The notes below the pieces were generated by a model. That model made no database searches, was not told the DNA's origin, and saw nothing but the letters and a program-made list of their open reading frames with translations. From Psilocybe azurescens (taxonomy: Eukaryota; Basidiomycota; Agaricomycetes; Agaricales; Agrocybaceae), in contig JAJIRX010000853.1 in assembly GCA_023853785.1 (NCBI GenBank), positions 183,407 to 247,406 on the forward strand: 64,000 bases of DNA, given 5' to 3'. Position numbers and translations under genes: made by a program. Numbering within the stretch: the first letter of the stretch is position 1; each line of letters opens with the position of its first letter. Shown here one piece after another: positions 33,801 to 58,393 of the stretch.

Positions 33801-33977
33801 AACAGCAAGCCACTCGGTAAGCACCAATACCATTATCGTTTCCATGAATGTAAACTATATCGATGTAGATTGCATCCAAACCAGAAGGTGAAAAATCCGC
33901 CCATGCTTGTAGTTGTGCGGAACATAGATGGCTGTCAATGTCGAGTTGCTCGTCTTCAAGTTTTGCTGGATGCTTAA
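30861..33977 (+). CDS. POP1: RNase P / RNase MRP protein subunit Pop1
   Basis: Pop1 is the large scaffold protein of RNase P and RNase MRP in the nucleus/nucleolus. The ATG at 30861 opens AQKRRNGEEGDEM; then INAARTIAVQP, FEIDAMHTAMKTAS, WQTLPRHLRRRAASHD, the hallmark block WLETHLWHAKRMHM with LWGYRL, and ASYYSLYEIKGPE. Later blocks are LQFHPS, FEIMGPKSSQVIKGAL, the central WTLILPAGW with a large SMAFFSSLIYTSTRVAGQ exon, and the end GFAIGAIAL..VVVRNIDG. About eight introns are present. Two frame breaks are needed: in the A6 run 30913-30918 (one A short) and in the G5 run 33746-33750 (one G extra). Because POP1 is essential and single copy, these are strong candidates for assembly errors. Confidence 0.92.
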
Positions 33978-34180
33978 AGCCAATGTATTAGTAGAGACTA
34001 TGTATTATGTTAGTTTTTATAGTAAACCATAGCCATGGTATCAACTGCCACATGGGGTTTGGCTCGAACAAGTGCACTTATAGAAAAGAAAAGGAATAAA
34101 TAATGGTCCAAATGTATACAGTATAATATACAATATAGAAGATGAGGGACGAAGAAATGAAACAAAAAACAAAGGAAGGG
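33978..34180. other. Convergent intergenic
   Basis: About 200 bases of AT-rich 3' sequence between the convergent POP1 and borealin-like genes. No gene. Confidence 0.4.
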
Positions 34181-35765
34181 TCATCGGATCTTCCACTTGT
34201 CAACGGTGGCTTGTATCAACCGGCCCATCTCCACTTTGGCTTGTTTCTTTGCGCTGTCTGAAATACCCTCGAGAGCATCCAGCGATCCCGGAGAGGTCTG
34301 CAACGGATCAAACTCGAGAAGGTGGCCATCCTTCGTAGGGATCGCCACCAGAGCCGAAAACGTTCTCTCAATCTTCGCTGGAGGACGCGGGGTCATTTCG
34401 TTGTTGGTCGGCTGCGTTGGTGGAAAGCGGAAAGATGGACCAAGAGTCAGTTGGGGTTGCGAATCGGGTTGGGTAGGCTGGGAATTCTCTCTTGAATGCG
34501 ATGATGAATTTGGTCGCGATGAATTTGTTTGAGATGAAGCAGTGTAAAAGCTTGCTTGCGAGTCTGTCCGTGAATGCAAGCCCGAAGGAAAGGCGACAGA
34601 AGGGTCTCTCCGGATAATAATACTACTCTTAGACCGTTTCAGCGTACGTCCTCCATTGGCGTCGTTTGTCCGGGTAAGATCATTTTCTTCCAAGCAATCG
34701 TCCTCTTCGTCATCCATATGCGCCATTTCAACACCTTTAAACCAGCCTAAACCAAATTCGTAAGGGTTAGCGAGAGGTGAGCCATTTATGCTAAGCATGT
34801 TTTCGTCCTTTCTTGGTAATCGCATTGTTGTATTTTGAGGATCCGGGTGTCGATTATGTGAAGGGTATGCGGGTGTTTTGTGAGGTATAGTAGGGTTGAA
34901 ACTTGAACTTGAAGGAACGCGACTTTTCACGCCGCCGATATTGGGGTTAGACGATGTTTGCTTTAGAGGAGAGGTGGGACGGGACGGTGGTCGTGGATTA
35001 AAGATGGCAGTGGAGTTATTGAAGGGGGCTCTAGGTTTCTGCGGGCTCATTGATGGAGCTGGACGGCCCATAGTCCGCGACTGTTGTTAAAATTAGCATA
35101 CGGATCAAAAAATTGATGAGCAAAGTGCGTACCACGTTAGAGCCAGGTGTTTTGGTGTTGCTCAGTAGTCTCGAGCGTTGAGCAGTTCCAGGTCCAGTGG
35201 AAGATCCGGCTACTTTCTTTGGTGACGACAGGTGTGTACGGGCTAAACAACCAAGCGTTGAGCGTATCGTGGTACCACAGAAGACAAGGCACAAACCATT
35301 CTTTAAGACCCTCTGTGAATCGGAATCTTTAAGTTGGCTTGATCCAGATGGCTCAGTTTCCGTTTCCTGACTCGCGACCCATTTCCTCTTCCGCATGCTC
35401 TTATCTATCTCTCCTAGTGTTGCATCGGCGCCCGCAGCAGCCAGCCGTTCCTTCTGAAATCCTCGCAAAGCCAACTGAATGTTTCCTTCGTATTTCTGCC
35501 CAAATTCCCGCATTGTCATACTCCTGACCTGCTTTGGAATGCGGGAAACCTGTCCTTCCTGATGGATCGTAAAGTTCTCTAGTCTGTCTGTGAGCCATGC
35601 CTCGAACTGACGGGTCCGATGCGCGACTGCAAGACGAACAAACGAATGTCAGAAATGGGCTTTTTATTTGGCAGAATGATGTTATGGACCTTCAATATCA
35701 AGATTGGCTATGAGCTGTCTCTTCTCCTCGTTGCTATAATGCCTTTTGGTGGTCGGTATATCCAT
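34181..35765 (-). CDS. Borealin/Nbl1-like chromosomal passenger complex subunit
   Basis: Start at 35765 (MDIPTTKRHYSNEEKRQLIA). The next exon continues AHRTRQFEAWLTDRLENF, HQEGQVSRIPKQVRSMTMRE and KYEGNIQLALRGFQKERL. This N-terminal 80-residue helical region is the Nbl1/Borealin N-terminal domain, which forms a three-helix bundle with survivin and INCENP. The long remainder is disordered and Ser/Pro-rich with SPQKP, SPLKQ and TPAYP sites that could be Cdk or Aurora targets. The last conserved bit (IERTFSALVAIPTKDGHLLE, then GSLDALEGISDSAKKQAKVE) may be a C-terminal dimerisation helix. Four exons; no frame break seen. Diverges from the ERG26-like gene over 209 bases. Confidence 0.85.
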
Positions 35766-35837
35766 TGTTTGAAGAGACTGACTTGAAGATAACGTTCCTG
35801 GTAAACAAACCCCAGGGCGCGACCAAGGAAGCGGTCT

Positions 35838-35855
35838 CACGTGGCATATCACGTG
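35838..35855. promoter_or_regulatory. Two E-boxes CACGTG-GCATAT-CACGTG in a divergent promoter
   Basis: CACGTG at 35838-35843 and 35850-35855 are separated by six bases, so both lie on nearly the same helix face pattern, in the 209-base gap between borealin and the ERG26-like gene. Sterol genes in fungi are often controlled by bHLH SREBP-type factors or Cbf1; direct evidence is absent here. Confidence 0.5.
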
Positions 35856-35974
35856 CGACGCGTTATGGGGTAAAATAGTCTTTCTTCATGTCGTTCGATC
35901 TCGTTGCATAAAAACTAAAGCCAGCGGACTCTTTCTTTCTTTCTCTTCGCCAACCCATTTTATCATTCTTATTA

Positions 35975-37507
35975 ATGTCGCAAACAAAATCCCGCGATGT
36001 CTACATGGTAATTGGTGGGAACGGCTTCCTTGGTCGCCATATTGTGCAACAACTCCTAGATCGAGGCGACATCGTTTCGGTATTCGACATCGTTGAGCGT
36101 TATAGTGACGTTGCTTTCTATGCTGGGGACATCAGCAATCAAGAATCAGTTGCCTCTGCTTTGCGCAGTGTATGTACAAATTTGTGCTCTAAATATTTGT
36201 ATTAATTGAGCTTCAGAGCGGTACCACTTGCATCATACACACTGCGTCACCACATGCGACTTTGAACAACCCAGCTCTCTTCCACAAAGTCAACGTAGAA
36301 GGGACTAAGGCTGTCATTGCAGCCGCTATCGAGACCAAAGTGCGCAAGCTTGTCTTCACGAGTTCGGCCGGTGTCGTCTTCAACGGAGAAGACGTCATGG
36401 ACGCCGACGAACGACTACCATTCCCAGCAGTACCTATGGATGCTTACAACGACACCAAAGGGAAAGCAGAAAATGCCGTTATTGAAGCCAATGGTAAAGG
36501 TGGTCTATTGACTGTCGCGTTGAGACCTGCCGGAATTTTTGGGTTAGTGACTAAAAATATCCCCTCTCTAAATGGTTTGCTTACGTCCTTCGAATTGTAG
36601 TCCCGGAGACCGACAGGTCATGTCTGGTCTATACCAAGTGTATGAACGCGGACAAACACACTTCCAGATCGGCGACAACACAAATCTGTTTGACTGGACA
36701 TATGTCGGAAACGTCGCCTATGCTCATCTTCTGGCCGCCGACAAACTCGACAACCCCCTCCTGCACCTCCTGTGTCTGAACTGGAAAAAATTCCCGCAAC
36801 TGCAGATGAAGTCCCTCCTCTGACCGAAGCCGAAGCTGCTATTTTAGACCATCCTATCCTTCCTGTTTCCCTCAGCACAGGTAAACACCGGGTGCCTACA
36901 TGCGAGGCGAGACCGTTGGGCCCATACGTCACGCCCCCTCCAAATGGCGCAAAAATTGCCGCCGCGTTCGAGGATCCAAATTTCGAGACCACACTTCGCC
37001 CCGTTATCAGGACACGGTTTGACCAGCTCTCAGATCACGCTCTCAAACGTGCCAAAGTCAACTACCCTGACATCCACCCCTTACAAGTCGCCGGACAGGT
37101 GTTTTTCATCACCAATGGAGAGCCAACGTATTTCTGGGATTTCCCGCGCCTGATCTGGAACGAGCTCGACAAGTACTTCCCTGAAAAAGAAAAAGCGCGC
37201 GGACTGATTAAGCTTCCTAAATCTGTGGGGTTGGCTGCTGCGACAGGGTCGGAGTGGTATGGCTGGTTGACTGGGAAGGACGTCACATTTACGAAGTTCA
37301 AGGTGACATTCAGTTGTGCGACGAGGTGGCACAATATCGAAAAAGCCAGGAGAATTCTGGGCTATGAACCCCAGGTTGGCGTCCAAGAAGGAGTGAAGCG
37401 AATGGTCGAGGTTAGTTCCATTTCCTGTCTCTATCTGTACCTCATAACTCATTTTTCTCTAGTGGTGGTATGCCGACTACCTCGCCAATCACAAAAAGTC
37501 CAGTTAG
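35975..37507 (+). CDS. ERG26: Sterol-4-alpha-carboxylate 3-dehydrogenase (Erg26-like)
   Basis: An extended SDR (3beta-HSD) enzyme that oxidatively decarboxylates 4-carboxysterols in ergosterol synthesis. Visible: YMVIGGNGFLGRHIVQQLL (NAD-binding GxxGxxG), FYAGDISN, IHTASPHA, NVEGTKAVI, VFTSSAGVVFNGEDV (active Ser), AYNDTKGKAEN (a Y..xK motif, here Y-N-D-T-K as in Erg26 families), LRPAGIFGPGDRQVMSGL and FDWTYVGNVAYAHLLAADKL. A later exon gives GQVFFITNGEPTYFWDFPR, then RRILGYEPQVG. Introns follow at LRS, FG and VE. One frame break lies in the C5 run 36754-36758 (one C short); the reading shifts from AADKLDN to PAPPVSELEKIP. Stop 37505-37507. Confidence 0.9.
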
Positions 37508-37705
37508 TGACAGGCACTAATGAGTAATAGTTATATACATTTATTCCGCACACTTGCTATCTATTTTCAATGACCGATACCCAGTGTACCATAGCCATCT
37601 TAATATTTTTTTGTTTGGATCCTGGAATTGGCACAATTATTTCCTAATCAAGTGATTGGCCAAACAAAGCCAAAAGATGAATCTTATCTTCATCCCTGGA
37701 CCACG

Positions 37706-39021
37706 ATGCCAGACTCACCAGAGCTCTTCCCTCCGATCACTCCTACTTACATCCTCGCCTTTCAGTTCTCCTCTTGGTATCCTACATTCGCAAAGCATAC
37801 CATCAAAAGTACCATCATCCGCCCTCTCTCTGCCCCTTTTCAAGAATATCTGCATGCAGATGGGGTGTTCGTGCCAGAAGGCTCTGAAGACGCGTTAGTT
37901 TGATTCTCACACTCCGCCTCGCCTTGCTCATCCATTTTTACTTTGAAATGCATTGTTGCCTATGATCAGACCTGCAGAGAGCACACTCTCAGATGACGAG
38001 AACGACGTTGACAAAAGCGACGGATCCGACGACGACGACAACGAGCAGCCTCGGAAACACTATGCTTTTCCAGACCTGGATCAGCGCATCCGACAGTGTG
38101 TAAAGGAATACGAGGCTGTATTCCCGAAACTCAACTTTTCGTCGCCCAAAGTAAATGTCAAAAGGTTGTCCTGTGTATGCAGTGTCTACAAACTGACTGC
38201 CTTTTTCATCTTCACAGGACGCATCATGGCTTCTCCCTTCCTCGTCTCCCTTGAAATGCACATCGCCTGCTGATGTCTACCTCCTCCTCAAGTCGTCCGA
38301 TTTCATCAACCATGATCTGAACACGGACAGTGTATTCGAAGGGACCGAATTATCATCACTACCACCGACATACGAACTCGAGCTCGTCCTGCGCAAATGG
38401 TACCCTGTCGATCGCGGCCGCGAGCTCCGGTGCTTCGTACGGGGAAACACACTCATCGGCGAGTAGTCACTGTCTTCCTTTCCATGCACCGTCTAACGTA
38501 CCACAAACTTTGGTGCATTCGTACACAGGGATATCCCAGCGGGACACCAACTTCTACGAATTCTGGAACGACACCAACACACAAAGTAAAGTCGCCTCTG
38601 CAATCCGCCAATTCTGGGAGACCAACATCCTCTCCAACTGGACGGCACAACCCGACTGTTAGTTTCAATTTACCTACCTGTACGCAAAATTTGACGAGGC
38701 TGGTATTTCTTAGATATCTTCGACTTTCTTCTCACCCGTGACCTATCTCGTGGTCACATCATCGATTTTAACCCATATGCGCCCAAGACCGATCCTCTCC
38801 TGTTCACATACGAAGAACTAGCAGAACTAGCGACCTCAACCAAACAGGATCACCTCCCTATACTCAAGGTCATTGACTCAGCATCACATCCAGTAGCAAC
38901 TAGCAATGCTCCGGCCCATCAGCACAACATGCTCCCCGTCGAAGCAATCAACATGAGCAGCGGGAGAGATATCGAGGAGTTCGCAGATCTATGGAAACAA
39001 ACTGTAAAAGAGAGCATCTGA
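37706..39021 (+). CDS. CDC123: Cell division cycle protein 123 (eIF2 assembly factor)
   Basis: Cdc123 is an ATP-grasp-fold protein that assembles the eIF2 trimer. The ATG at 37706 starts PDSPELFPPITPTYILAFQF, followed by SSWYPTFAKHTIKSTIIRPL. Next are an acidic loop (SDDENDVDKSDGSDDDDNE), FPDLDQRIRQCVKEY, FPKLNFSSPKDASW, SADVYLLLKSSDF-like, LVLRKWYPVDRGRELRCFVR and GISQRD. The end has FDFLLTRDLSRGHIIDFNPY, a key part of the ATP-grasp site. Exon 1 ends at 37888-37893 with a 70-90 base intron; three further introns fit. No frame break seen. Stop at 39019-39021. Confidence 0.93.
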
Positions 39022-39146
39022 CAAATCATATAAACCTTCCAAGATTAGTTTTTATAATAATTAATGATGGTCTACATCTGTAGCACCTATTGACAATCCT
39101 CTACACAACTCTCGTACAGCCAAAAAGACACTCTAAAGCCTTATGT

Positions 39147-40887
39147 CTACTTGTCGACCTCAACACCGGAATCGCTGGCCGCGCTCTCTGGCATAGCTGG
39201 CTTCATCTGGGCAAGGCCGTATGCGTTTTTAAAGAAGACAACGTCGCCCTCATCTTCAACGAACTTGCACTCCTTGAAGACACGATAAACCTCGGCCCAT
39301 CCTCCGGGAGCACCTTCGATAGGGACACCGGCGGAAGCAAGTCTCTTCTTCAAAGGCAGTGCTTGCCTCCCAACTTGAAAAAAAAAAATGGTCAATCTAA
39401 AGCTTTCCAGGCGTAGTCAGGAAAAGACAAGACTCACGCATTGTAATGGGGGATCTTGCTGCAAACATGGTGCAGAACGTGGGTCTCCGAGATACCGTTG
39501 GTAGCATGCGAGCCGATCCAAGCCATGACACTTCCGAGATCACCAAGGAGGTTGCGATCCAGGGTGGCAAGGGCACCACGAGCAAAAGTGAACTCAGGAG
39601 CACGGTAATGGGGCAGGAGAGGATCAGTGTGTTGCAAGAAGGTGATCAACACGAGCCAGTGGTTAACCCTAAATTATGATTGGTTGACCTAAATTGCAAT
39701 AAATTGGTTCATTTCAAACGTACCAGAGATAGGGGAGCAAGTAGGAGCGGAAAACCTGGAGGAATCCGTTGTAGTGGATGCTGACACCAATGCAAGCGAG
39801 CCAAATGAGAATGCCGACGGTGGACATAATAACCTGGCTATAATGGTGGGCCATGAACATAGGCGAGTTTGGGGTGAAGTCTTGAAACAATACATCAATA
39901 CTTTGTAATACAAAAGATACTGGCGCGTCCAAACTTACGACTGGTGCCCTTGGGATATCTAGGTTGGCCTGAGGCGTTCATGATGATGTATGTCCACCAT
40001 CCTCCAAGCTGAAAAGAAAAAGGTAAATATCAAATTTCACCAGTCACCAGAGATTTCTTAATAGATATTTACCAAGTAGGAAGCAGGGGTCAAGATAGCG
40101 CCAATGGGGGGAATCACCAAGAGCCTCCCACATCTCCTTTTAACTTCCTCTGTCACACGCGATCCGAGGATGTCTTCCCTGGTAGGGTCAAGAGGTGGTA
40201 GGCCGACCATTGAACGAGTAGCAGGTACAAAGACTTGATCCTGGGTCATGTGTCCGGTGGAAGCGTGATGCTTAGCGTGGGAGACGCGCCATGAGTGATA
40301 TGGAACACCGAGGCTGTAAGACGCGTCGGCATTTGTCAAGTCCGACGAAACTTTAAAAAGAAATGAACTTACGCAGAGTGGAGGACCCATCCAACAGTGT
40401 TGTTGATGATCTTTGATTCAGAGAAAGCTTGATGGCCGCATTCGTGTCCGATGACCCAAAGACCAGTAGCAAACAAGCCAGCCCAGAATCCGTAGAGCGC
40501 CCACAGAGAGATGCTGGCGGCAGTGTAGAGGTAGGGGTGGGGCAGCGAGACGAAGGCAGGGTCAATGAATGCACCGAGGTAAACGGTGGCTTTGTAGAGG
40601 CATCCAATAACGAACAGGTCCCAAATACTATACACGTAGAAAAAGTTGAGTAAGTTGACTCCTCACGACCAGTCGACAAAAGGCTCACATGTAGGAGGAA
40701 GACCTGATGGCAGATCTCTTGAAGCAATGGGCGCTGGAAGAGGCTATAAGTAACACGAAACAAAAGAAATATAGATAAGAGCAGCTCACGGAATGGAATC
40801 CAACAAGTCCTTAATCGGGATATCTGGGACTGGGTATACTGCCTGGTCAACGACAGTGACTTTCTCGTCGTCGTCCTTGCGCGCCAT
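39147..40887 (-). CDS. Delta-12 fatty acid desaturase (oleate desaturase, FAD2-like)
   Basis: ER-membrane enzyme converting oleate to linoleate with a di-iron centre. The start at 40887 gives [20 protein letters not shown]; the N-terminal [20 protein letters not shown] block is typical. The three histidine boxes are [19 protein letters not shown] and [13 protein letters not shown]. Long hydrophobic segments lie between boxes 1 and 2 and before box 3 ([20 protein letters not shown]). Introns (about 50-60 bases) follow FKRSA.., SIWDLF.., WVLHSA, ASYL, KGTS and IPHY. The C-terminus is [19 protein letters not shown], then SGVEVDK. All boxes are intact and no frame break is needed. Confidence 0.93.
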
Positions 40888-41614
40888 TGTACCTGTTGTC
40901 GATGAGGGAGGATAAGAGGAAAGGGAGGAAGTACAAGCGAGCTGCTCGAGAGTTTGTTAAATTTATGGGGGACCTGTGATCGGACAATGCCGATATTTTT
41001 TTTCAATGGGGCAGCTGTGAGTGGGTGGTGCGTTGGCATGAGATTTTGGCAACCCCAGCCATCTTGCTCACCGTCAGTCTTTCTCCCTCGACTGCTCGGG
41101 GTAATCACCGTGCTACCTGTCTAGACTTGTCTCCATTCCCCCTACTTATCTACATACCTTTTCTTTTACTATCGGCTCATATATGGTACTTATTTGAATC
41201 CATTTCTAATTATAGATCAGGTCGAGGCCTCTGACCACTTATAATTATTCAAGATATTCCTCGAGAATCCCAAAAGGCATGAACAAATGCGCTCACTTTC
41301 ACTGGTTCGGCCATTAAGGTGCTCTAGACCCGGTCTAGTGTGATCCAACAACAAGCACTTAAGCGGTGGCTATGTGGGTCCTCGATGCAAATACCTCCGT
41401 GCCTTTCCATTGTGCAACCCTCAACGCATAAAAACATGTACACCGCGTGAAAGTATTATTAGGGTACATAGAATTTTCAAGATAGTCTTGGGTACTATTT
41501 ACATTTTTTACATTCTAGTATGACCTGTGTATATATCTAATGACCATAAATATCATCAAGCGAAACCTCGTGAATAAAATTCACCGTGAAAGAGCTTTTG
41601 GAGAAACGTGGCGA
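40888..41614. other. Intergenic between the desaturase and CK1-like genes
   Basis: About 730 bases upstream of the desaturase and downstream of the CK1-like gene. No gene is supported; AT-rich near 41500. Confidence 0.45.
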
Positions 41615-43711
41615 TTATTGCAGCACCTTCAGTCGCTCTGACAATCCTTCCAGGAAGGCAAATCCATCCTACAAGCAAGATTATAGGTAAGTACTCGTAC
41701 ACCTCTTGGAACATATGACCCCACCTTCGTCACTGTCCGTCCAGTACTCTTGTTCGTGACCTTGGCAAAATCAGCAACCAAAACGGCCAGCGCTTTGTTA
41801 CTTTGAGCCTGCATCACTTCCCGTCTAAGGCGGGCAACAACTCCCAATTTAACATGAGCAGGTTCTTTCTCCGGCACTTGCTCATTAAACGATTGGTGTC
41901 TAAACGGACCGTTGAGCATTTATCGCCGTGTTCAAGATACACAGACGTACCGTTCGGGCTTGACAAAAACAGAAGGGTCGTCCAGCTGTTTGTATAAAAC
42001 GTCCAAAAACGTAAACGCCTCTCTTGTCAACGTCCTCGAGCTATTCATCTGCAGAACATCCACAAACTCTCTAACCAAATGCGACAACGCTGCGTTGTCA
42101 GTAGCATTCGATCCTCGACCAGCCAACTGGTTGAGACGCAGAGCTTTGGGTGCTTGGTATCGCACAGGTGCTGGCCCATTTTCCGAATCACTGCTAATCA
42201 CGATGGTCTGACCTGACTGCCTTCGAGGTTTCTCGACTTCTTTAGTCGAATCAAACTGAATATCTTCCCTGGCTCTTCGCAAGGCTTCCTGGATATTGGT
42301 TCGATCACCCAGAATGGGTTGGGCCTCAAGGTTGAGATTAGTAAGATTGTTGAGAATATCAGCCATCTCGTCCCGAGGGACCGCTGGCGTCCTTGCTCTA
42401 AGTGGTGTGTTCATGGATTTGACAGCGGCCTATCAACGATAAATGTATTGAGACTTTACGAAAACAGTCAAAAATAGGATTCGAGAACTTACAACGGGCA
42501 CAGGCGGAGGTGGCCAAATAAACTCGTCGGCGTTTTTGAACCCTTCATCCATTGCCAACTCTCTGAACTTGTTTGTCCACTGTGCGTAGTCCGGCGATTC
42601 CTTGAAAGATAATCTTCTTGTATAAGATAAAAATTCTTCGAATTCCGAAGGAAGACCTCTGCAAAGATGCTCTGGTGTAGCTTTTCGCTTCTCTGCCTTG
42701 AGGCGATTGTGTGCCTCGCTTGTTTTTGGTACGCCATTCCTTGTCCAACTCAGCCCCCGTGGTGTTAGCAGGTGAATGAACATGAGCGCCGCAGCTTCCA
42801 AGTCGTCTCGCCGTGATGGAACTATCATTCAATAGAGATTCAGATATTGCAACTCGCAGAAGACTGACAAAAAAGGGATGCACCTTTTCCGCGGCAATGT
42901 ACGTTGACGGAGCTACCAAAGTATTGAGTCCTGAAATGGGGAATCGTAAAGAGGATGAATACCTGAACCAATAGTTGCCAATAAAATCGCGCTTAACCTT
43001 ACTATCAGGAATGTGCCGTCCGGTGTATTGGTCGATGTAGCGTTTGGAGAATCCAAAATCGATCATGTAAATAATCTTTTCGTTTGGCGGCAGTCCGACA
43101 ACGCAGTTGCCCAGTTGGATATCCCTGTGCAATACCCCACGATGGTGCATGAATTGCAACCGTTGGATCTATCAAGATCAGTACAAGCCTTACTAATCGT
43201 GCGCTCAAGTATGAGAAATATAGAACTCACCACTTGGATGGCAATTGAACAAACGGTTCTCAGATCCATCATATCTTTACCACTTCGGCGATAGAGGTTG
43301 TCGAGACTGGGCCCCAGCAGATCGATAGCAAGATAATCCCATGCTCCCTGCACACCAGCCGCGTAGAGTTTGGGCATTCCTACGCCGCCCTGGAGTAACG
43401 GATATAAATGCCGTTCATAACGGTTGGTTGGACATTCATGGTTGACGTATTGGACCTTTAAAGCGACGACTTGGTGTGTATGGAGATGAGTAGCTTTAAA
43501 AATGGATCCTGTAACAGATAGTCCATCAGAAATAAGAACCACTAGATGATGCAGTATATACCTGAATACCCTGATCCAAGATTCTCATTTAGCCACCAAT
43601 TGGCAATGACAGCGGGGATGACTGGGGAGGAGCTTCTATGCTCCCTTCTGATCCAGTTTCAGAGCCTTCTGAGGAGTAATCTTCAGAATTGGAAGCATGA
43701 GATTCGACCAT
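41615..43711 (-). CDS. Casein-kinase-1-like protein kinase with atypical catalytic loop
   Basis: Start at 43711 (VESHASNSEDYSSEGSETGS). The kinase part opens VIANWWLNENLGSGYSGSIF, with VVALKVQY (catalytic Lys of the N-lobe), ERHLYPLLQGGVGMPKLYAA, LAIDLLGPSLDNLYRR, then LHRDIQLGNC and YMIDFGFSKRYID (DFG). This order is CK1. The usual HRDIKPxN Lys is Gln here (codon 43115-43117) and PxN becomes LGN, so activity is questionable or relies on a different residue. A frame change is needed in the C4 run at 43624-43627. A C-terminal tail (YQAPKALRLNQLAGRGSNAT, then repeated R..FTFLDVLYKQL and DGFAFLEGLSERL) holds two similar short helical repeats. Stop 41615-41617. Divergent from PDC. Confidence 0.85.
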
Positions 43712-44109: not shown

Positions 44110-46608
<2,499 letters not shown>

Positions 46609-46997
46609 ACCGTGCAATCGCAATTCTCAATCGACGACCTCTGTATATTTGACGAAGTTTTATATGTAGCAATAACCGTGACACGCAACTAGATACATCC
46701 TAGACACGAACGCAATTAGTCTAAGATATGTACAGTATGTAACACCTCATATGTAATATGACTATTATGCCTCCATGTCATAGTAGTTTCGGGACCTTCA
46801 AGTACGTTGAGCATCGAAATACCGCTTAAGAAATAACTATTTCTGGAATAGAGTTATACAACTCTTCAACTGCGTTCTTGGTTAATAATCTTCAGACTGC
46901 TTACGATTCAAAGACGATATGTCACAATGCCAAAATGGCCTTGCTGTGAAACAGAAAGGCTCCCCACTGTCTAAAATACCTATGTTATGTAACTTAT
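46609..46997. other. PDC 3' region
   Basis: About 390 AT-rich bases after the PDC stop, with no gene. It leads into the minisatellite. Confidence 0.45.
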
Positions 46998-47275
46998 GTT
47001 GGTACATTGTTTGTTTCTCTTCCGTTTGCCAAACACTTGGACGATTCTGGGAAACTCGACAAAATGTTGGTACGTTGTTTGTTCCTCTTCCGTTTGCCAA
47101 ACACTTGGACGTTCAGATTCTGGGAAACTCGAAAAAATGTTGGTACGTTGTTTGTTCCTATTCCGTTTGCCAAACACTCGGACGTTCAGATTCTGGGATA
47201 ACTCGATGAAATGTTGGTACGTTATTTGTTCTTCTTTCGTTTGCCAAATAATTGGACGTTACTCGGGATTCCTAC
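46998..47275 (+). repeat. Minisatellite, four units of 65-75 bp
   Basis: Units start at about 46998, 47064, 47138 and 47212, each beginning TGTTGGTACGTTGTTTGTTC and containing CCGTTTGCCAAACACTTGGACG. Unit 1 lacks the TTCAG before ATTCTGGGAAACTCGA; unit 4 diverges at its 3' end. CGTTTGCCAAAC is itself a short imperfect palindrome in each unit. Confidence 0.85.
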
Positions 47276-47351
47276 GTCTAGTCACATACTGATGTTACAC
47301 TGTAACATATGATATGATAGAAAGTACATTTACAGTGTAGCATATCATATG

Positions 47352-47373
47352 GGTTCAGTGGTCCCTCTGAACC
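47352..47373 (+). repeat. Subterminal hairpin GGTTCAG...CTGAACC
   Basis: Seven-base perfect stem with an eight-base loop, 51 bases inside the left tip, mirrored in the right arm at about 52203-52224. Confidence 0.6.
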
Positions 47374-47407
47374 AGTGAATGTTTCCCTTCCATTTTGGGC
47401 AGCCTAC

Positions 47408-47432
47408 ACTGTACCATATGATATGGTACAGT
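47408..47432. repeat. 25-bp near-perfect palindrome ACTGTACCATATGATATGGTACAGT
   Basis: Arms of 12 bases mirror around a single central base. The mirrored copy is at 52144-52168. The related CATATGATATG and CATATCATATG words recur at the extreme tip (47306-47316 and 47340-47351). Confidence 0.75.
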
Positions 47433-47623
47433 AAATCCGCTCAATGGCTCATACCCAGGCATTTTTGTAGGCTATCTGGCATACATTCTGTGGCTCTGGG
47501 GTGTCTACAGGAAACTGGTAAAGCCTTAATTTTGCAATGAATTGACAAGCATTGGTGCACACACCATAATAAATTATAAGTGAGCAATCGGGAAAGAACC
47601 GGACTGTAAATGTGATTTAAATA

Positions 47624-48185
47624 AGCCCAGAATCATGCAAATCGGACAGGATTTGAGGGAGATATAATGGTTGTAATGATCCAATTTTGTGTATTTGGCC
47701 CGGGGCAGGGCGGGAATGAGAGCCGCCCGGTCCTGGTCCCGGGTGTAAAAACGCATGAAAAAAGCTAGACAAAATTCCGATCAAAACGAGCCTAGAAACA
47801 GCCTAATCGGACAGGATTTGAGGGAGATATAATGGTTGTAATGATCCAATTCTGTGTATTTGGCCCCAGGGCAGGGCGGGAATGAGTGCTGCCCCGGTCC
47901 CGGTCCCGGGTGTAAAACGCATGAAAAAATCTAGACAAAATTCCAATCAAAACAAGCCTAGAAACAGCCAAATCGGATAGGATTTGAGGAGATATAATGG
48001 TTGTAGTGATCCAATTTTGTGTATTTGGCCCCGGGGCAGGGCGGGAATGAGTGCCGCCCGGTCCCGGTCCCGGGTGTAAAACGCATGAAAAATCTAGACA
48101 AAATTCCAATCAAAACGAGCCTAGAAACAGCCAAAACGGACACAATTTGAGTGATATATGTGGGTTGTAAATTTCCAATTTTTGC
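47624..48185 (+). repeat. ~165 bp GC-rich tandem repeats (left arm)
   Basis: Recurring landmarks are TCGGACAGGATTTGAGGGAG (about 47643, 47806, 47971, and degenerate at 48135) and GGGCAGGGCGGGAATGAG. Period is 163-166 bases, so the repeat is nearly a multiple of three and stays open in one frame. The mirrored set is at about 51391-51952. Confidence 0.8.
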
Positions 48186-48194
48186 TGTATTTAG

Positions 48195-48885
48195 CCTTGG
48201 ACCAGAACATGAATTATCATTGAAAAAGTGAATGCCGGGCCCGGAAATTTTTGCAATGGGGCGGGAATATGTCCGGAATAGTGCCAGACATTGTAAACCG
48301 GGTCGGAAACATGAATATTATTGAAAATAGTGCATGCCGGGCCCGGGAATTTTTGTAATGCAGCGGGAATATGTCTGGAAAAGTGCCGGAAATTGTAAAC
48401 TGGGTCAGAAACATGAATTATTATTGAGAATAGTGTATGCCAGGCCCAGGAATGGTTGCAATGAGGCAGAAATATGTCCAGAAACATGTATTATCATTGA
48501 GAATAGTGCATGCTGGGCCCAGGAATTTTGCAATGGGGCAGGAATATGTCCGGAATAGTGCCAGACATTGTAAACCGGGTTGGAAACATGAATATTATTG
48601 AAAATAGTGCATGCCGGGCCTTGGAATTTTTGTAATGGGGGCGGGAATATGTCCGGAAAAGTGCCAGAAATTGTAAACTTGGTCAGAAACATGAATTATT
48701 ATTGAGAATAGTGCATGCCAGGCCCAGGAATGGTTGCAATGAGGCAGGAATATGTCCGGAAACATGTATTATCATTGAGAATAGTGCATGCTGGGCCCAG
48801 GAATTTTTTACAATGGGGCAGGAATATGTCTGGAATAGTGCCGGACATTGTAAACCGGGTCGGAAACATGAATTATCATTGAAAA
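48195..48885 (+). repeat. ~70-110 bp degenerate tandem repeats (left arm)
   Basis: Units contain AACATGAATTATCATTGAGAATAG, TGCATGCCGGGCCCGG (GGCCC core) and GGGCGGGAATATGTCCGGAA. Alternating long units (with an extra GTGCCAGACATTGTAAACCGG segment) and short units give a higher-order pattern. The mirrored set is at about 50464-51375. Confidence 0.75.
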
Positions 48886-49210
48886 ATGCAGATCACACTT
48901 GGGAATATGTCCAGATATATGTTGAGTATAGCAAACTGGGTCAGAAATGTGTATTATTATTGAAAACAATTCAGGCCATGTCTGGGAATTTTGAAATGGG
49001 CTGGAAATATGTCTGAACAGATGACAGACATGGAATTATGAGTTGAGTAGGCATGGAAATGTACAAAATGGTTTGTAAAATACCCCAGAAACATGGATTA
49101 TCGTTGACAAAGACTCATACTGAGTGTGGCAAAAGGTTAAATAGTCTGTAAACATGTCTGATCAGGTCAATATGACCGAGCCTTGAAATATGTATAATTG
49201 TCTGTAAACT

Positions 49211-50094
49211 ATTCCAGACATACAGATTGTGATTCTATAAAGCAAAATGGGGTGGAAGTTCTTGTGCAATTCATTGTAGTATCTGACTGCTATTGCAATT
49301 AGTATCGATACCTCATTTTATCTGTGTTAATTAACCTAACTGTAGACATATCGGTCATTTCAGTTCAAGCTGCAAGCTGCAGCTGCTTTTACTTTTTCCC
49401 TGGTTATTCCACTCTTTGTATAATTTCTTTCACAAGTTACAAATGGCAGTAACAATCAGAGTGCTACTTGCTTGTTTCTCAATCTGCTCTGTAACTTTTA
49501 TGACCAGCATCAGTTTTTGTTTTGAATGCAACCACACTCTTGTTTTCATTAAATACCAGTATCCAACCAGCAATAATTTTATCAAGTATGCATCCATGTC
49601 AATCTGCTTAATAATGTTAACAATCAGTGGAAATGTCTGTCAGTTCTTTTTAGTGCTTAACATGAATTTTAGAATACATTCAATGGACAGGCAGGCATGA
49701 CAACTAACAAGCAGCACTGCACATGCTTTCTCCTCTACATATGCACATTCACCACCCATACTTGCGGTTCATTCACACAACTCATTTCACTAACTGACAC
49801 CTTGCCTGGGGAAAGTATAGAAGGAGAAAAATAATGGGCAATAGAATAGTATGCACTTGCTAACCAAATTTACACTCTCATGTGCACCTACAACCTGTAC
49901 CTTTTCAAGCCTTGGCCAGGTGTAGAGATTGTGATAAGACAAAGTACAGGACAGGGCAGTTGAAAGGGAAATGAGTGTACAAAAGATCATTGGACTGTGT
50001 TCTACATTTCAGCACATGAGCTGAGTCTTCTCATTGATTATATACATATACCAGAACATGATTGTGGAATATTTTCCATGTTTCTGAACCAAGT
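49211..50094. other. Spacer between foldback arms
   Basis: AT-rich single-copy sequence of about 880 bases. The ORF at 49416-49700 has hydrophobic stretches but no recognised motif or coding bias I can support. Nothing else is identified. Confidence 0.5.
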
Positions 50095-52275
50095 CAAAGC
50101 AATTGTGCACCAATTATACATGTTTTAAGGCTCAGTATATATCAACTTGATCAGACATGTTTACAGGCTATTTAACCTCTTGCCACACCCAGTATGAGTC
50201 TTTGTCAATGATAATCCATGTTTCTGGGGTATTTTACAAACTATTTTATACATTTCCATGCTTACTCAACTCATAATTCCATGTTTGACATCTGTCAGAA
50301 CATATTTGCAGCTCATTTAAAAGATTCCCAGACATGGTCTGAATTGTTTTCAATAATAATACACATTTCCGACCAAATTCAGCATGTCTAGCACTTGTCT
50401 GGACATATTCCTTCCCATTTTAAAAATTCCTAGGCCTAGTCTGCACTTTTTCAATGATAATACATGTTTCTGGACATATTTCTGCCCTATTTTAGAAATT
50501 TCCAGGCCCAGTATACACTATTCTCAATAAGAATTCATGTTTCCGACCTTATTTACCATGTCCATCACTTGTTCAGACATATTCCTGCTCCATTGCACAA
50601 ATTTCTGGGCCCAGCATGCACTATCTTCAATAATAATTCATGTTTCCAACCTGGTTTACAATGTCCGGCACTATTCCGGACATATTCCTGCCCCATTGCA
50701 AAATTCCTGGGCCCGGCATTCACTTTTTCAATGATAATTCATGTTTCCGGACATATTCCCACCCTATTGTAAAAATTCCTGGGCCCAGCATGCACTATTC
50801 TCAATGATAATACATGTTTCCGGACATATTCCTGCCTCATTGCAACCATTCCTGGGCCTGGCATGCACTATTCTCAATAATAATTCATGTTTCTGACCAA
50901 GTTTACAATTTCTGGCACTTTTCCGGACATATTCCCGCCCCATTACAAAAATTCCAAGGCCCGGCATGCACTATTTTCAATAATATTCATGTTTCCAACC
51001 CGGTTTACAATGTCTGGCACTATTCCGGACATATTCCTGCCCCATTGCAAAATTCCTGGGCCCAGCATGCACTATTCTCAATGATAATACATGTTTCTGG
51101 ACATATTTCTGCCTCATTGCAACCATTCCTGGGCCTGGCATACACTATTCTCAATAATAATTCATGTTTCTGACCCAGTTTACAATTTCCGGCACTTTTC
51201 CAGACATATTCCCGCTGCATTACAAAAATTCCCGGGCCCGGCATGCACTATTTTCAATAATATTCATGTTTCCGACCCGGTTTACAATGTCTGGCACTAT
51301 TCCGGACATATTCCGCCCCATTGCAAAAATTTCCGGGCCCGGCATTCACTTTTTCAATGATAATTCATGTTCTGGTCCAAGGCTAAATACAGCAAAAATT
51401 GGAAATTTACAACCCACATATATCACTCAAATTGTGTCCGTTTTGGCTGTTTCTAGGCTCGTTTTGATTGGAATTTTGTCTAGATTTTTCATGCGTTTTA
51501 CACCCGGGACCGGGACCGGGGCGGCACTCATTCCCGCCCTGCCCCGGGGCCAAATACACAAAATTGGATCACTACAACCATTATATCTCCCTCAAATCCT
51601 ATCCGATTTGGCTGTTTCTAGGCTTGTTTTGATTGGAATTTTGTCTAGATTTTTCATGCGTTTTACACCCGGGACCGGGACCGGGGCAGCACTCATTCCC
51701 GCCCTGCCCTGGGGCCAAATACACAGAATTGGATCATTACAACCATTATATCTCCCTCAAATCCTGTCCGATTAGGCTGTTTCTAGGCTCGTTTTGATCG
51801 GAATTTTGTCTAGCTTTTTCATGCGTTTTACACCCGGGACCAGGACCGGGCGGCTCTCATTCCCGCCCTGCCCCGGGCCAAATACACAAAATTGGATCAT
51901 TACAACCATTATATCTCCCTCAAATCCTGTCCGATTTGCATGATTCTGGGCTTATTTAAATCACATTTACAGTCCGGTTCTTTCCCGATTGCTCACTTAT
52001 AATTTATTATGGTGTGTGCACCAATGCTTGTCAATTCATTGCAAAATTAAGGCTTTACCAGTTTCCTGTAGACACCCCAGAGCCACAGAATGTATGCCAG
52101 ATAGCCTACAAAAATGCCTGGGTATGAGCCATTGAGCGGATTTACTGTACCATATCATATGGTACAGTGTAGGCTGCCCAAAATGGAAGGGAAACATTCA
52201 CTGGTTCAGAGGGACCACTGAACCCATATGATATGCTACACTGTAAATGTACTTTCTATCATATCATATGTTACA
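50095..52275 (-). repeat. Right arm of the foldback structure
   Basis: Reverse complement of the left arm. The inner 50095-50700 is longer and more diverged than its partner (extra repeat units present), and the outer 50700-52275 is near-identical. Its end lies 11 bases from the helicase stop codon. Confidence 0.8.
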
Positions 52276-52286
52276 ATGGTACATAT

Positions 52287-54680
52287 CTAGCTGCTATCCA
52301 GCTCCCATGCGTCCCTTGTTCGCTCGTTTATTTCCTCTAGTCTTTTCATGTCTTTTCGAAGATCCTCAGACGGGTGATGCTGGAAAAGCTTGCGATCGAA
52401 AGGTCTGAGAAGCCTGATGGTATCTCTCCCTCTGCTCCTGGACATAGCCACATAGACTCCGAACGGTGAAAGGCTACCAGTCGGGGGTTTCGCAAGGTCA
52501 ATTATAACATATTCGATTGTTTGACCTTGTGACTTGTAATCGGTGAACGTGTATCCAGCTGTGATACCATACTGTCTTCTTTTATTAACATCGATTTCTT
52601 CTTTTTGCCTTTAGTCTTGACAGAAAACGTTGCCTCTGATGGTGTTAAAGGTATGAGGCCAGGTTCTATACCGTCGAACTGTAGTTCTGTGCGCTTATTT
52701 GGTTTGAAGAGTATCATCGCTGGTGGGTACTTCAGCTTTGCTGTGCCGTCCGTGATTGGTGGGTGTGTCCATTCTCTTTCATCCAATATTATGTTGTGTA
52801 TGATCCCGCGCGTCCCATTGGCAATGTTGCCTTCTGTTGCGATATTCAATAATATCATTGCTTTCATGCCGACCGCTATCTGAACCGTCTCCGCCAGCTT
52901 CTGTGTGTGATCTTCATTGAGTTTGGCAATTTCGCACCAGGTGCTTATTGATGGTCTTTCTCCAGTCTTCTTCACTGTGTCCTCTGCTTCTACAATGTAC
53001 CAAATATTGCCTGTTGTTCTGCAATGTTTGGCCAGAGATTCCACATTCCACATTTCTCTCACAACGTGTCGACTGGTCACTAAAACGGCATCGCTCCAAG
53101 GCGCTTCTTGAAAGTTTGGCTTGTCGCACTCCTTGTGCTCCAGTACCAATTTCTCGACTTCTTCAATATCGTTGTAGTCGCATTCGCCGACCCGGAGCCT
53201 GTTGAGTATATCTATCCAAACTTTGTCTTTGATGCGTATTTGCTTATCCAGAATAACAACAGTGTCAAACTGCTTGAATATTTCACGTCCGATGGTTGCT
53301 CTGGCGGTGTCTTTCTGTTTTTCAACGTACAGAGCTCCGGTAGCATTTCCGACTGGAGGGAACTGGTGAAAATCGCCCGTGAATATCAGATGCATCCCTC
53401 CGAATGGGTCTTCTGCGCTTCCTTTGAAATCATTTGCTCTTGTATGGCCAGTCACTTCTGATGTCAGGAACACCCCTGTTTTGTCCGTCATGGACACTTC
53501 GTCCAATATAAGGAAGGCTTTCCCCTCTATGTTCCTTCGCCGTTTATTTAATGTTTTGTCGCATGCCCCCTCTAGCCAATCTTCCTTCGTAGGTGGCCTT
53601 TGCGAAAGACCAGCCCATGAGTGTAGCGTCATACCTCCTATGTCGGTTGCCGCAATCCCAGTCATTCGCGCATTTCGGCTAAAATGTCTAGCTGTCCATA
53701 GTACCGAAAGGTCTCCATGATTGCTCCGATTAGCATCGATTTCCCAGTGCCCCCTTGCCCGAGTATCAACATTCTCAATTGGGGAGCTTTTCCGTCTATT
53801 AACTTCACTGTGAGCATCTAAATTTGCATCGTTGACATTTGTGCACTCACTCGTCATGTGCTGCTGCAGCCTCCTTTCGACTATGTCATGCGCTCTTCTT
53901 TGCTCTTCGTTCAAGAGTGCCAACAACATGCGTTCTTGTCTTGGAATCGGTACTCCCGAATCTGTCAACACTCTTGACGGCTCGATTGGCAATATCTCGG
54001 GTGCCGTGTTGGCTGTCGACAAATTCGGTGCTCTGTTCTGTACGCTTCCATTTACCGTGTCTGCCTGAGGTTCTGTACTGACTGTTCGCCTTACAGTCTC
54101 CTTCAATTTCTTCTCCCAGGCTACGATTTTCAAAGTGTCGTCGCCTGATGCCAACTTGCGTCCAGCATTCCACACTGTTTCCATCGGACTGTCGTCAAAC
54201 ACTCCTGCACAGTATCCTTCGTATAGCGCTGCCGTTCCAAACATTGTGTCCCTAGCTGCAATCTTTTCCAATCTTGCTATCTCCAGGTCTTCTTCTGTCA
54301 TCTCGTCCTCGATTACATTGGCTCTGACTAGCTCATCCATCTCGGCCCTATCCTCTTCGCTTATTTCGAGGCTCAAATTCGAGCGGACCACCTTCGCGGG
54401 CTGTCTTTTCTTCCTCCCTCCTCGCATGGGCTCCGTCCAAACACTCATAATAGTACTGGATGTTATGGATGATTTTCAGAACCTCTCGGTCGCCCTGTTC
54501 CAGCATGTGATCGAACTTTCCTTTGAACGTGGAGAAGTCGCCTTTGAGCTCAGATAGCTCGCTCCATGGGCTCAGCAATGCGAGGATTGATGCATAGTAA
54601 AATTCTTTTTCGTGCTCTTCGGTTCCATCGTTCCTTGGGAACCATCTGCCTACGAACCGAGGCATCGTCTGCGTGTCCAT
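52287..54680 (-). pseudogene. Helitron PIF1-type helicase region
   Basis: A 648-residue ORF (52502-54448) covers most of the helicase: AFLILDEVSM (Walker B), GGMHLIFTGDFHQFPPVGNA (motif III), and VGMKAMILLNIATEGNIANG. The Walker A motif (LILGQGGTGKSMLIGAI, 53735-53780) lies in a different frame between two opposite breaks: an extra A near 53788 and a missing A near 53690. A third break in an A5 run near 52600 separates the C-terminus: TDYKSQGQTIEYVIIDL, GVYVAMSRSRGRDTIRLLRP, stop 52287-52289. All helicase motifs are preserved in sequence, which argues for consensus errors or very recent inactivation. Confidence 0.85.
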
Positions 54681-55363
54681 CGCCCCCTACGATCACGACA
54701 TCTCGCCGGTTTTCCAGCGCCTTCTTTGTATTTTACCCGCTCACTGAGCGGCCGTCCTCTTCCCCTGCGAATTGGTGTTGCTCCTCCTCGTCACCTTCCT
54801 CTCCCTCTCCCTCTTCCTCATCCTCATTTTCGAAGTCAGGATTGTCAATATCGAAATTGCCGTCGACGGCAGCGACATCAACACCAACAATAGCGGCATC
54901 AACACCAACAACGGCGTCAGCGACAGTAGCCGCAGTATTGGCATCGGTGGCAGCGTTAGCATTCGGCGTTTTGTTTTCTTCTTTTTCTTCTTCACAATGT
55001 CTCCTTCGTACGTGTTCAACATGAACTTCAGAAAGTTCATTTCACGGAGCTCTTCTCCTCTGAATTTGTAATCTTTCAGTTGGTCTCTCAATACCACTTT
55101 TCCTCCGACCATATTGATTGTAACATTCGATTCCTGCTTTTAGATGATTCAGCTCTTTGAAGCCCGTGCTATTGCTGGTCTTACCCCTGGATCCGGTACA
55201 TGTTCTCTTTGCATCATCAGCACCATCGAGCTTCCTTGAGCAGGCGTCAGCGTCTCGAGAGAAGTAGGCAATCCATGTGTTTGGTCCGCGCCGTCTCTTG
55301 AACTTATAACCCCTCTGCTGCAATTGTAAGTCGGATCCCACACACTGCTGGTATGATGTACAC

Positions 55364-56962
55364 TCACCTGGGCCTGTCTAGTTCAGGAAATATTGTTTGT
55401 AAGCTTCGGGCAGCCGCATCCCAGAATATGGATACGAAATGGTGTGATTCATAAATATCTCCCCATCCCATGATATAGCTCATCACCTCAGGTGCGCTGA
55501 ACTCCCGGTATCTTGTCAATGAATTTGCGCATCGTTGAATCAGTCTTTTGTTGACAAGGTTCATGTCTGTCTGGCATCTATCCGCTGCCCTTGAGAAAGC
55601 TAATGTGGTTGCGAGCAGGGCCGACACGTTTGACGACCTTTGCTGTTTCTTCGCCGCATAGTTTGTTATGTAGAATGTGATTGTGGCAGTATCCTTTCCA
55701 CTCATGATAAGCTTGAGGTCATGGTTCGCCCTCAATGCCTGCATAATGCTTGGATTGAACGAGTTCAACAGCTCGCATACTCGTTTAGGCCCCAATTTCC
55801 AACTTCATCAACCCAATCGCTCTATTGCCTTATGGAACGGGGCCCTCCTCTTGCATTCCAGTCGTCCTTTTACCAACTTGAGACACGCGGCTGGCGTGCA
55901 TTTATGGTATTGCAACGCCCTCACAAGCTTTGCAAGTCGGTCTAATAACTCTTCGTCGGTGGCAGTCCGGCGGATTGACTGGATGAGAATATGATATTCC
56001 CGCAACCTTTGGTATTTCGAGAACCTGCTCCTTGGTCTTGCCGCCGATATCGGCCTGGATTACATTTTGATGTGACGCTTTCATCTTTTTCTGAACCCTT
56101 CTGTTTTCAGGGCAGTCTTGATCTCGTGTGCCGCCGGGCGCGTCTTTCAGCCAGATGAGAGTGTGCAAGTGCAGCGTCCCGCGTCCCTGTGCCTCAACTG
56201 TTCCGATATAGCTCTGGACTTTCCTAGCACCCCATACTCGCGTTCAAGTTTCCCTTTTGGATGCTTTTTGATTCCTAGCAACTCCTCAAACACGGTCTTC
56301 ACTATAAAATGAAAGTATTGTGCCGAGGCATATGGATCGGCTGCGATGTTCATGGCTCTCGTGATATGGTCGGGGCCGGCAGTGTTGCAGAAAGCATCCA
56401 TATCGATCTCCTCTCCGGCGAATACTTGGGCTATAGGGTCTTGAGAGTCCGCCGGATTTATTGTCATCCAGATCGATGGTGGATTGAAGATCAAATTCGT
56501 GCCCCACACCTTCGATCTAACACTCACCCTCGACTCGTCTGTCCCTTTCACTTTTGTCCCGGACTGCGCCAGTTCCTCCCGGAGAGCCCTGACTGCAGGA
56601 TTGGAAAATCTCACTCCTCGGGTCTCTTCTTTGCTTGCCTCAAGCAGATCTGCGGGCTTGAGGTTGGCTATCATGTTCATGTTGCGTACGAATGTCGATT
56701 TTTTCATTTGTAACACGGCTGATCTGCACACAGCTCTCTTCTGCATGACGCCGAAAACCTGGAAAGGGTACTGAATTTCTTTTCTAAATCTCCGGTCCAC
56801 GTATTCCATTGTCCATCTGACGTGTGTCTCGTAGGCTATATATACCGGTCTGTTCGTCTCGATCCCGCCCATCCCGTACGGAAATAACGTTGGGAAGCAT
56901 CCCAGTAGATGATTAGGATTGCTCGGCCCTCCGTCGTTTCTTAGACCAGTTTTGGGATCCAC
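55364..56962 (-). pseudogene. Helitron Rep (HUH/Y2-like) nuclease region
   Basis: Begins GCFPTLFPYGMGG, a conserved Helitron_like_N entry motif. It continues WMTINPADSQDPIAQVFAGE and YASAQYFHFIVKTVFEELLG. The catalytic HUH-like motif reads GRGTLHLHTLIWLKDAPG around 56168-56195, intact. The tyrosine motif appears as ATITFYITNYAAKKQ near 55650, matching Y..Y with a nearby Lys. These are the residues that nick DNA and form the covalent 5' bond in rolling-circle transposition. Frame changes occur near 56150, 55905, 55800 and 55360; the last may be a true intron. Confidence 0.82.
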
Positions 56963-58393
56963 GCGTGCATATTCGTTGACGAAAGCACTTCCCGGCGTAT
57001 GGTATAGTCTTCTGGGATATCTTGCTCCATGCAGCTATTGCTGAGAGCGTGTGCGAGAAGTTCTGATGAACTGATATCCCCTCCATCTATGTCAACTACC
57101 CCCATTGACTGTAGAGGGATAACCATAGGCTCAACTTCGTCGGTCTCTAGTTCAGTTAATTTGAATCAGAACTTGTTGTCTCTATGTAAGTGACTGTATC
57201 TTACGCTGTTCATTTTCTTCGTGAAGCTCATCTATTTCTGCAAGTCCGGCCTCATTCAACGTGATTCTGTATGTTTTCTCTCAGCAGTTTAGCTAAATGC
57301 GCACTCGGCTGATTGTGTAAAGATTGTACCTTCGTCAGCTGCATCCTCTGGTACGTAACCTGAGTGTTCTCTCTCTACTGCTTCGATGTCCGCTGAATGC
57401 TTCGCTGTCATTATCAATTCTTCTGGGATCCCATCTTCTGGAAGTAAGGTGAGGTTTTCTTCCGAGATTGTTATATCTGCATAGAGCGTGTTGTTGATTT
57501 TGAGCCATCGTAGAGCGTCCCTCACCCGTCTTCGTCTGACTCTAAACATGGTCGGCATTGATGATTCTGGCAATCCCTTTGGGCCAACGAACGTGACGCC
57601 GATGGTTGCTGGAAGAATTTTGGGCGGGCGTGGGTACGTTTTTAAGCCTCCTCCAGCATTGATGTGACTTGATTTGGGTTCAGCCGGTACGTTGATACAT
57701 TCCCTCGAAGCCCATTATGCATCTGAGCGCGATCCCAAGCTTGTGCTCCCTTCTGCTTCGGAAAAGCTTGACAATATAAGCAGCCGGGAAGTATACTGCT
57801 ATCAGCATCCTTTCTGGCAGTGTTAGATCTTGAAGCTCCTTGGGTACGTCGCCTATCCAAAGGTCATTTCCTAAACTGAATTTTGGTCTTTTCTCGGTTT
57901 TCAGCGAGTTGTAACATTCCGAGCAGATTATAAGGGTATTGCCGTTGTTGATGACCGAATCCCCATGAACCAACATACCGTCCATCAAAATGTGGGCAGG
58001 ATGCGGAGTCGCCGGTGCAAGAAGCTCCTTGTTCGGTATTTCGTCCAAATCCTTCTCTCTTAGATCCTCTTCTGGCCTGTCCCCGCGACATGATCCACAT
58101 GTCCGCCGACGCAAAGCTTCGTTACTGGTGGCGCTCTATAAATAATCCAAGCCTTTCTTTCAGTGTATCCGTTGTCGGTGCACTGAGAAAATCGCTCTGA
58201 ATGACTTCTTCTATACGGCGTTCTGAGACTTCATGATCCTCGTCGCTGTCCGTCTCGGGTGTCGCTGATCTTCTCTCTCCTGCGGCATCGTTCTGACAGT
58301 GGCGTCCGCTTCGTCTTTGATCCGGGTCCGCATATCTTCTGCGGCACACCGCTGCATGCTCTGGTTAACCACGTCTGGAAACGTTGCAATCAT
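56963..58393 (-). pseudogene. Helitron N-terminal part (DUF6570-like)
   Basis: Reading starts at 58393 (ATFPDVVNQSMQRCAAEDM), then a CxxC-type segment RRRTCGSCRGDRP and ICSECYNSL, which may bind zinc. The DUF6570 core follows: NDLWIGDVPKELQDLTLPER, VYFPAAYIVKLF, LRGNVSTYRLN, then RVRRRRVRDALRWLKINNTL. It continues with LLPEDGIPEELI and DYTIRREVLSSTNMHAWIPK. Frames change at about 58118, 57700, 57290 and 56950; some of these could be short introns. Function of DUF6570 in Helitrons is not established. Confidence 0.75.

Follow-up and report, generated by a model that had tools for sequence, protein, structure and literature searches.

A non-coding foldback transposon of Psilocybe azurescens, probably of the KDZ superfamily and with arms that appear to recombine

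A stretch of 64,000 nucleotides from the genome of Psilocybe azurescens (GCA_023853785.1, contig JAJIRX010000853.1, positions 183,407 to 247,406 of the forward strand; the whole stretch is referred to as the window) contains a palindrome of about 5 kb with internally repetitive arms, and the question that this locus raises is whether the structure is a mobile element or a local inverted duplication and, if mobile, by what it is moved. The palindrome is one of dozens of copies of a foldback DNA transposon scattered over the genome. We propose, with a probability that we would put at roughly 85%, that the element is non-autonomous, that it belongs to the KDZ superfamily and most likely to its Kyakuja type, and that its two arms recombine with each other.

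A dispersed foldback element with fixed, unequal ends

The palindrome was first described in an initial annotation made from the sequence without database searches, and it is real. Gapped alignment of positions 47283-49290 with the reverse complement of 50061-52293 gave 1873 identities, 46 mismatches and 403 gap letters, an identity of 97.6% over aligned positions as against 73-75% when the right arm was shuffled five times, so that the arms do not prove unrelated on proper alignment, as the annotation had allowed that they might. Among the 25 longest of 87 ungapped inverted pairs, the longest spans 459 nt and is 99% complementary; others span 403 nt (97%), 208 nt (100%) and 184 nt (90%). The annotation had also correctly described arms of about 1.9 and 2.2 kb around a spacer of about 0.9 kb and the same order of units in both arms. 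We find this order to run from a tip with three 19-bp iterons through a 165-bp array to a 73/102-bp array; the right arm owes its extra length mainly to an inner array extended by stretches of 70 and 176 nt. Its span for the element, 47301..52275, does hold the palindrome but falls short of the true ends, which lie 18 nt farther out on each side, at 47283 and 52293, as it is there that copies cease to match each other. The outermost 18 nt of the two sides, referred to here as tips A and B, are not inverted copies of each other. The longest ATG frame lying entirely inside the spacer is of 85 amino acids, and Rfam at gathering score gave no match over 46500-53000.

In the 70 Mb of genome searched, the 459-nt arm tip has at least 40 full or nearly full matches (40 scored of 140 candidates). 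Tip A occurs 38 times and tip B 61 times within 3 mismatches, with 0 occurrences of the reversed control pattern in either case. Over 27 arm-tip loci taken for comparison (L009-L035) the ends are constant while the flanks differ; tip A shows one to three changes in a few copies, and the tip of L033 is a hybrid with a B-like outer part and an A-like inner part. Eighteen copies were read at both an A and a B end, a copy with two B ends (B/B) on C550 and a locus with two A ends (A/A) on C623 being set aside, and the 7-bp target duplication is exact in 10, has one mismatch in four and is absent from four. The first 14 of these copies (the window copy, L009-L020 and L036, a set that includes L020, a 1.5-kb deletion copy, and L036, which carries an insert) account for seven exact and four one-mismatch duplications and three cases of none (window, L011 and L012); of the four further copies, in which only the ends were compared, C445, C550 at 362 kb and C8 have an exact duplication and C817 has none. 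In a control of 364 between-copy pairs, drawn from the 14 copies and not from the four added ones, none agreed with 0-1 mismatch.

The annotation had named multiple copies with fixed ends and target duplications as the mark of a transposon, and these are what was found (38 A tips, and duplications with 0-1 mismatch in 14 of 18 copies). The features of the foldback class are all present, namely long and internally repetitive arms that reach nearly to the ends, multiple copies, fixed ends and target duplications. A one-off, immobile inverted duplication, with which the missing target duplication of the window copy would agree, is hardly credible in the face of dozens of same-end copies inserted at separate places, with 7-bp duplications in the majority of those whose two ends were read, and of related Helitrons that exist without the foldback.

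A KDZ transposon with the same ends

As the initial annotation had stated, no transposase is recognisable in the foldback, and we saw no KDZ transposase there; one is present in a partner family with the same tips that lies elsewhere in the genome. The outer ~152 bp of this second family are 78-80% identical to the foldback. Its member L037, in which no inverted pair reaches 60 nt, contains a frame with a KDZ domain (PF18758, 31.9 bits against a cut-off of 26.6), and homologues of a neighbouring frame carry CxC2 (PF18803) or KDZ domains. Proteins of Tricholoma matsutake and Phlegmacium are similar to a frame of the KDZ element, and KDZ matches also lie inside further members of the family, for example on C570, C854 and C819. 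Before the KDZ frame search, ten frames from L023, L024, L029, L030, L035 and L037 had given matches to DUF4939 and DUF4100/gag-protease only. Tip B is the near end of L037 and its relatives, and at least 21 of the 61 tip B occurrences run on into L037-type sequence. The far end of the partner was found by comparing the copies on C16 and C539 and starts with the 18-nt tip A of the foldback; tip A of the KDZ element was seen in L055, L056 and L057. Projected from C16 to C480, the partner would be ~15 kb long, no contig holding an uninterrupted copy.

The A ends of foldback and partner share 114 identities over the outer 144 nt, with 27 mismatches and 6 gaps (score 123), and the B ends 125 identities over 152 nt, with 22 mismatches and 10 gaps (score 149); shuffled sequences scored at most 30 in these comparisons. 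In both families the A end and the B end each contain three 19-bp iterons, which start at positions 16, 51 and 125. Their pattern was derived from the foldback, and none of the iterons in these four ends departs from it by more than one mismatch; the A end of the partner has in addition a fourth, weak match with 4 mismatches. These three fixed-position iterons are candidate transposase sites. The partner also has an imperfect subterminal inverted repeat, with 98 identities over ~127 nt. Both ends were read in a single KDZ copy, that on C528, and the 7 bp on its two sides form an exact duplication (1/1); the ends are 25 kb apart, presumably because of an insert.

For Kyakuja, 7-bp duplications and CA..TG termini without terminal inverted repeats (TIRs) have been published, and for Zisupton 8-bp duplications (Kojima 2025, PMC12730594). 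As the CA..TG ends and the 7 bp are those given for Kyakuja, the foldback most likely derives from Kyakuja and, being non-autonomous, is moved by a transposase acting in trans, the type being assigned by the published description of termini and duplications. Like Kyakuja elements (e.g. Kyakuja-1_LB and -2_LB of Laccaria bicolor), it has 7-bp duplications, CA..TG ends and, in its partner, a KDZ transposase; Kyakuja is described as carrying TET/JBP genes, whereas the foldback is non-coding (PMC12730594). We propose that the KDZ transposase of the partner may bind the iterons within the outer ~150 bp, cut at CA..TG and join the ends at staggered 7-bp cuts, and that the foldback would be moved in trans by this enzyme.

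Another source of the element could be the P superfamily, an origin that was prompted by the 7-bp duplications and set aside upon finding the KDZ partner. Galileo of Drosophila, a foldback of this superfamily, has 7-bp duplications and arms that agree at 98-100% inside a copy but diverge more from one copy to another (PMC2775673, PMC3573991). Given that the genome contains a KDZ element bearing these very tips, we consider such an origin very improbable; the lack of any genome match to two P-type transposase domains is uninformative, since control genomes were equally silent.

The genome holds a large, partly decayed KDZ population, with at least 170 KDZ-domain matches, many of those listed with stops. 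It is conceivable, therefore, that the foldback is moved by the transposase of a KDZ family other than the L037 type, the more so as what it shares with that type is confined to the outer ~150 bp. However, both 18-nt tips and the iteron spacing match the L037-type family, the only KDZ family whose ends were compared, and we regard a different KDZ source as distinctly unlikely.

FB elements of Drosophila are of a Mutator-type superfamily, and both they and Tm1 of root-knot nematodes have 9-bp duplications. The present element resembles FB elements (PMC4022104) and Tm1 (PMC3169594), the latter Mutator-type according to the title of its description, in having a loop enclosed by long inverted terminal repeats that are composed of modular repeats. 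It is like Galileo in its long, internally repetitive inverted arms and 7-bp duplications but unlike it in transposase superfamily, and unequal tips go unmentioned for Galileo in the sections available to us of PMC3573991 and PMC2775673. KDZ1-3 of Cryptococcus neoformans share the KDZ transposase but differ in having 139-241-bp TIRs, 4-8-bp duplications, a length of ~9-11 kb and coding capacity (PMC12810828). Different transposon superfamilies have been described as sharing long inverted arms through convergence (PMC3573991), and KDZ would now join them, its Kyakuja type having been reported without inverted repeats (PMC12730594). We found no description of a KDZ foldback in the open-access literature, Repbase Reports and subscription papers being outside the search; within the literature searched the structural class is known, and the superfamily assignment and the scorable isomers described below look new.

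Likeness of the arms and orientation of the spacer

The arms of a copy resemble each other more closely than they do those of other copies. Of 28 arm tips from the 14 copies, 25 are nearest to the partner arm of their own copy, the exceptions being one arm of L019 and both arms of L020, and 0 of 10000 random arm pairings were as close as that observed. On the arm tree 13 of the 14 copies have their two arms as sisters, 11 of them with a starred branch. The difference between the arms of a copy is 0-0.7% in 12 of the 14, for which mean between-copy distances are 3.4-8.7%; it is 2.7% in L019 and 27% in L020, the B arm of which extends past the deletion.

Because the tips are unlike, they provide a reference for scoring the orientation of the spacer, and crossing-over between the arms becomes countable, an event that is hard to see in elements with identical ends. 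Relative to the tips the spacer is flipped in 11 of 28 copies. Twenty-one loci were scored by script (13 in window orientation, 8 flipped) and seven more by coordinates (window orientation in C443, C817, C550 at 362 kb and C477; flipped in C445, C8 at 37 kb and C175); set aside were 8 of 29 loci without a spacer, the ambiguous C568 and C794, and the B/B and A/A loci, and the spacer is partial in L012 and L024. A spacer tree of 19 copies requires at least seven changes of orientation, of which three are forced by starred branches, such as that joining L009 with L022, in a tree of low resolution (stars on 2 of 16 inner branches). On the arm tree, L014 and L015, which have opposite spacer orientations, fall in one supported group.

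Recurrent crossing-over between the arms is the simplest reading of the spacer flips. We propose that the two arms of one copy may pair and recombine, in which case gene conversion would hold the arms alike and crossing-over would flip the spacer. Two reasons, singly or together, could account for the lasting difference between tips A and B: they are unlike to begin with and border on flanks that lack homology, or one of each is required for transposition. Copying from one arm that overran the element would be expected to leave a structure such as that of the B/B copy on C550, although this is a single case: a 37-nt remnant of an A tip is followed by a further ~100 nt and then by an inverted copy of ~118 bp of right flank that runs into a B arm, and a single base distinguishes the 7-mer at the A remnant from that at the right end.

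Several observations weigh against a Kyakuja-type foldback with recombining arms. Kyakuja is described without TIRs (PMC12730594), whereas the foldback has ~2-kb arms and the partner a subterminal inverted repeat. Inward of the outer ~150-164 bp no similarity between foldback and partner was found (L037, L043, L050, L052, L054 and L055), and a TET/JBP domain was not seen in the 10 partner frames scanned. Four of 18 copies, including that of the window, are without a target duplication, as is the A/A locus on C623. Finally, orientation is unclustered on the spacer tree (500/500 shuffles were as low), which fits either recurrent flips or random mis-orientation by an assembler, and the match reaches the contig end in 5 of the 27 loci L009-L035.

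The last two of these observations would also suit the best surviving of the alternatives, in which the transposon is real but the spacer flips, and perhaps the within-copy likeness of the arms, were made by the assembler or polisher; arms of ~2 kb are longer than short reads. Nevertheless, the 27 loci contain no N and lie on contigs of 10 to 866 kb, which suggests that long reads were used. The 10 copies with both a spacer and an exact or one-mismatch duplication are divided five to each orientation, and the arms group by copy, whereas one would expect polishing to blend the arms of different copies as well. We judge an artefact of this kind to be improbable, though it deserves more weight than the other alternatives, and prefer recombination between the arms. 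It may even be that the element isomerises continually in the living fungus, with crossing-over between the arms so frequent that a single culture would contain both orientations at one locus, and with unequal tips that lie beyond homogenisation preserving its capacity to transpose. We offer this extension tentatively and incline somewhat against it; if true, a KDZ transposon would here have become a natural reporter that itself scores how inverted repeats recombine.

Insertion site, decay and neighbouring elements

Table 1. Features of the foldback and of the Helitron that contains it (positions in the window)
Feature	Position	Strand	Remark
Complete foldback element, tip A to tip B, 5011 bp	47283..52293	.	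Fixed ends common to other copies
Left arm	47283..49200	+	Inverted-pair search and gapped alignment
Right arm	50111..52293	-	Inverted-pair search and gapped alignment
Spacer	49201..50110	.	Orientation relative to tips varies among copies
Tip A, 18 nt, begins CA, unlike tip B	47283..47300	+	At A ends of other copies and of KDZ element
Tip B, 18 nt, begins CA on minus strand, unlike tip A	52276..52293	-	At B ends of other copies and of KDZ element
Iteron 1, A side (putative transposase site)	47298..47316	+	
Iteron 2, A side	47333..47351	+	
Iteron 3, A side	47407..47425	+	
Iteron 1, B side	52260..52278	-	
Iteron 2, B side	52225..52243	-	
Iteron 3, B side	52151..52169	-	
165-bp GC-rich tandem array, left arm	47619..48196	+	
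165-bp GC-rich tandem array, right arm	51381..51952	-	
73/102-bp array, 278-bp super-unit, left arm	48202..48885	+	
73/102-bp array, 277-bp super-unit, right arm, longer than left	50401..51375	-	
Target Helitron, part left of insertion, includes 73-bp tandem array	46936..47282	.	
Target Helitron, part right of insertion	52294..57031	-	
PIF1-like helicase frame in host Helitron	52502-54472	-	
Helitron_like_N frame in host Helitron	56147-57031	-	

The window copy is inserted in a Helitron. The Helitron-type frames lie outside the foldback, in this host, and the Rep/helicase genes are thus not the foldback's own. Including the window's own sequence, the left flank has 22 genome matches and the right flank six, the latter over 52294-52900, the section of the right Helitron part that was compared with other copies. 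Two related Helitrons, L074 and L075, have 69 bp between the positions that are now parted by the foldback; at the same point L076 holds 642 nt and, to judge by coordinates, C733 holds about 68. The simplest reading is a loss of 69 bp of target flush with the tips of the element, at insertion or later, which may explain why the window copy has no target duplication. Ectopic recombination between two copies was considered as the cause and set aside in favour of target loss, because the window arms are sisters and two related Helitrons hold the 69 bp; an exchange followed by homogenisation fits less well but is conceivable. By coordinates, the related Helitron copy on C844 (roughly 33376-42485) seems to carry ~9 kb at the place of the foldback. 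Inside the host Helitron, a 73-bp tandem array (3.7 copies, 46996-47260) adjoins tip A. A phage search with the PIF1-like frame yielded nothing useful, and the outermost 22 nt of the A end had no exact counterpart in viral contigs. A POP1-like gene also lies in the window; its best hits are metagenome contigs (96%), and among the 120 hits listed Rhizopogon vesiculosus, at 53%, is the one organism with a name.

In the arm tips, CpG transitions are ~8 times as frequent as those at other C/G sites (0.077 against 0.0095, counted in 25 of 28 arm rows with L020_B and both L036 rows left out). The majority sequence of the spacer retains 2 CpG positions, with 10 transitions in 38 cells. To judge from these substitution patterns, the excess fits cytosine methylation.

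Long inserts in L016, L024, L029, L035 and L036 were considered as transposase-bearing interiors of the foldback and are instead read as unrelated nested or neighbouring elements, because inverted pairs of their own were found in them. Inverted ends of 209-213 bp bound the inserts L016:2040-3631, L024:1010-2607 and L035:3989-5588, those of L024 and L035 being 96.5% alike over ~1.6 kb; the insert L036:1433-4221 has 86-bp inverted ends, and that of L029 has an inverted 226-bp pair inside. A separate block of 190-203 bp, 93-97% alike, is shared by L030:1558-1760, L032:5081-5270, L035:1418-1620 and L036:774-965; it is unmatched in the window copy and belongs to diverged copies of the foldback.

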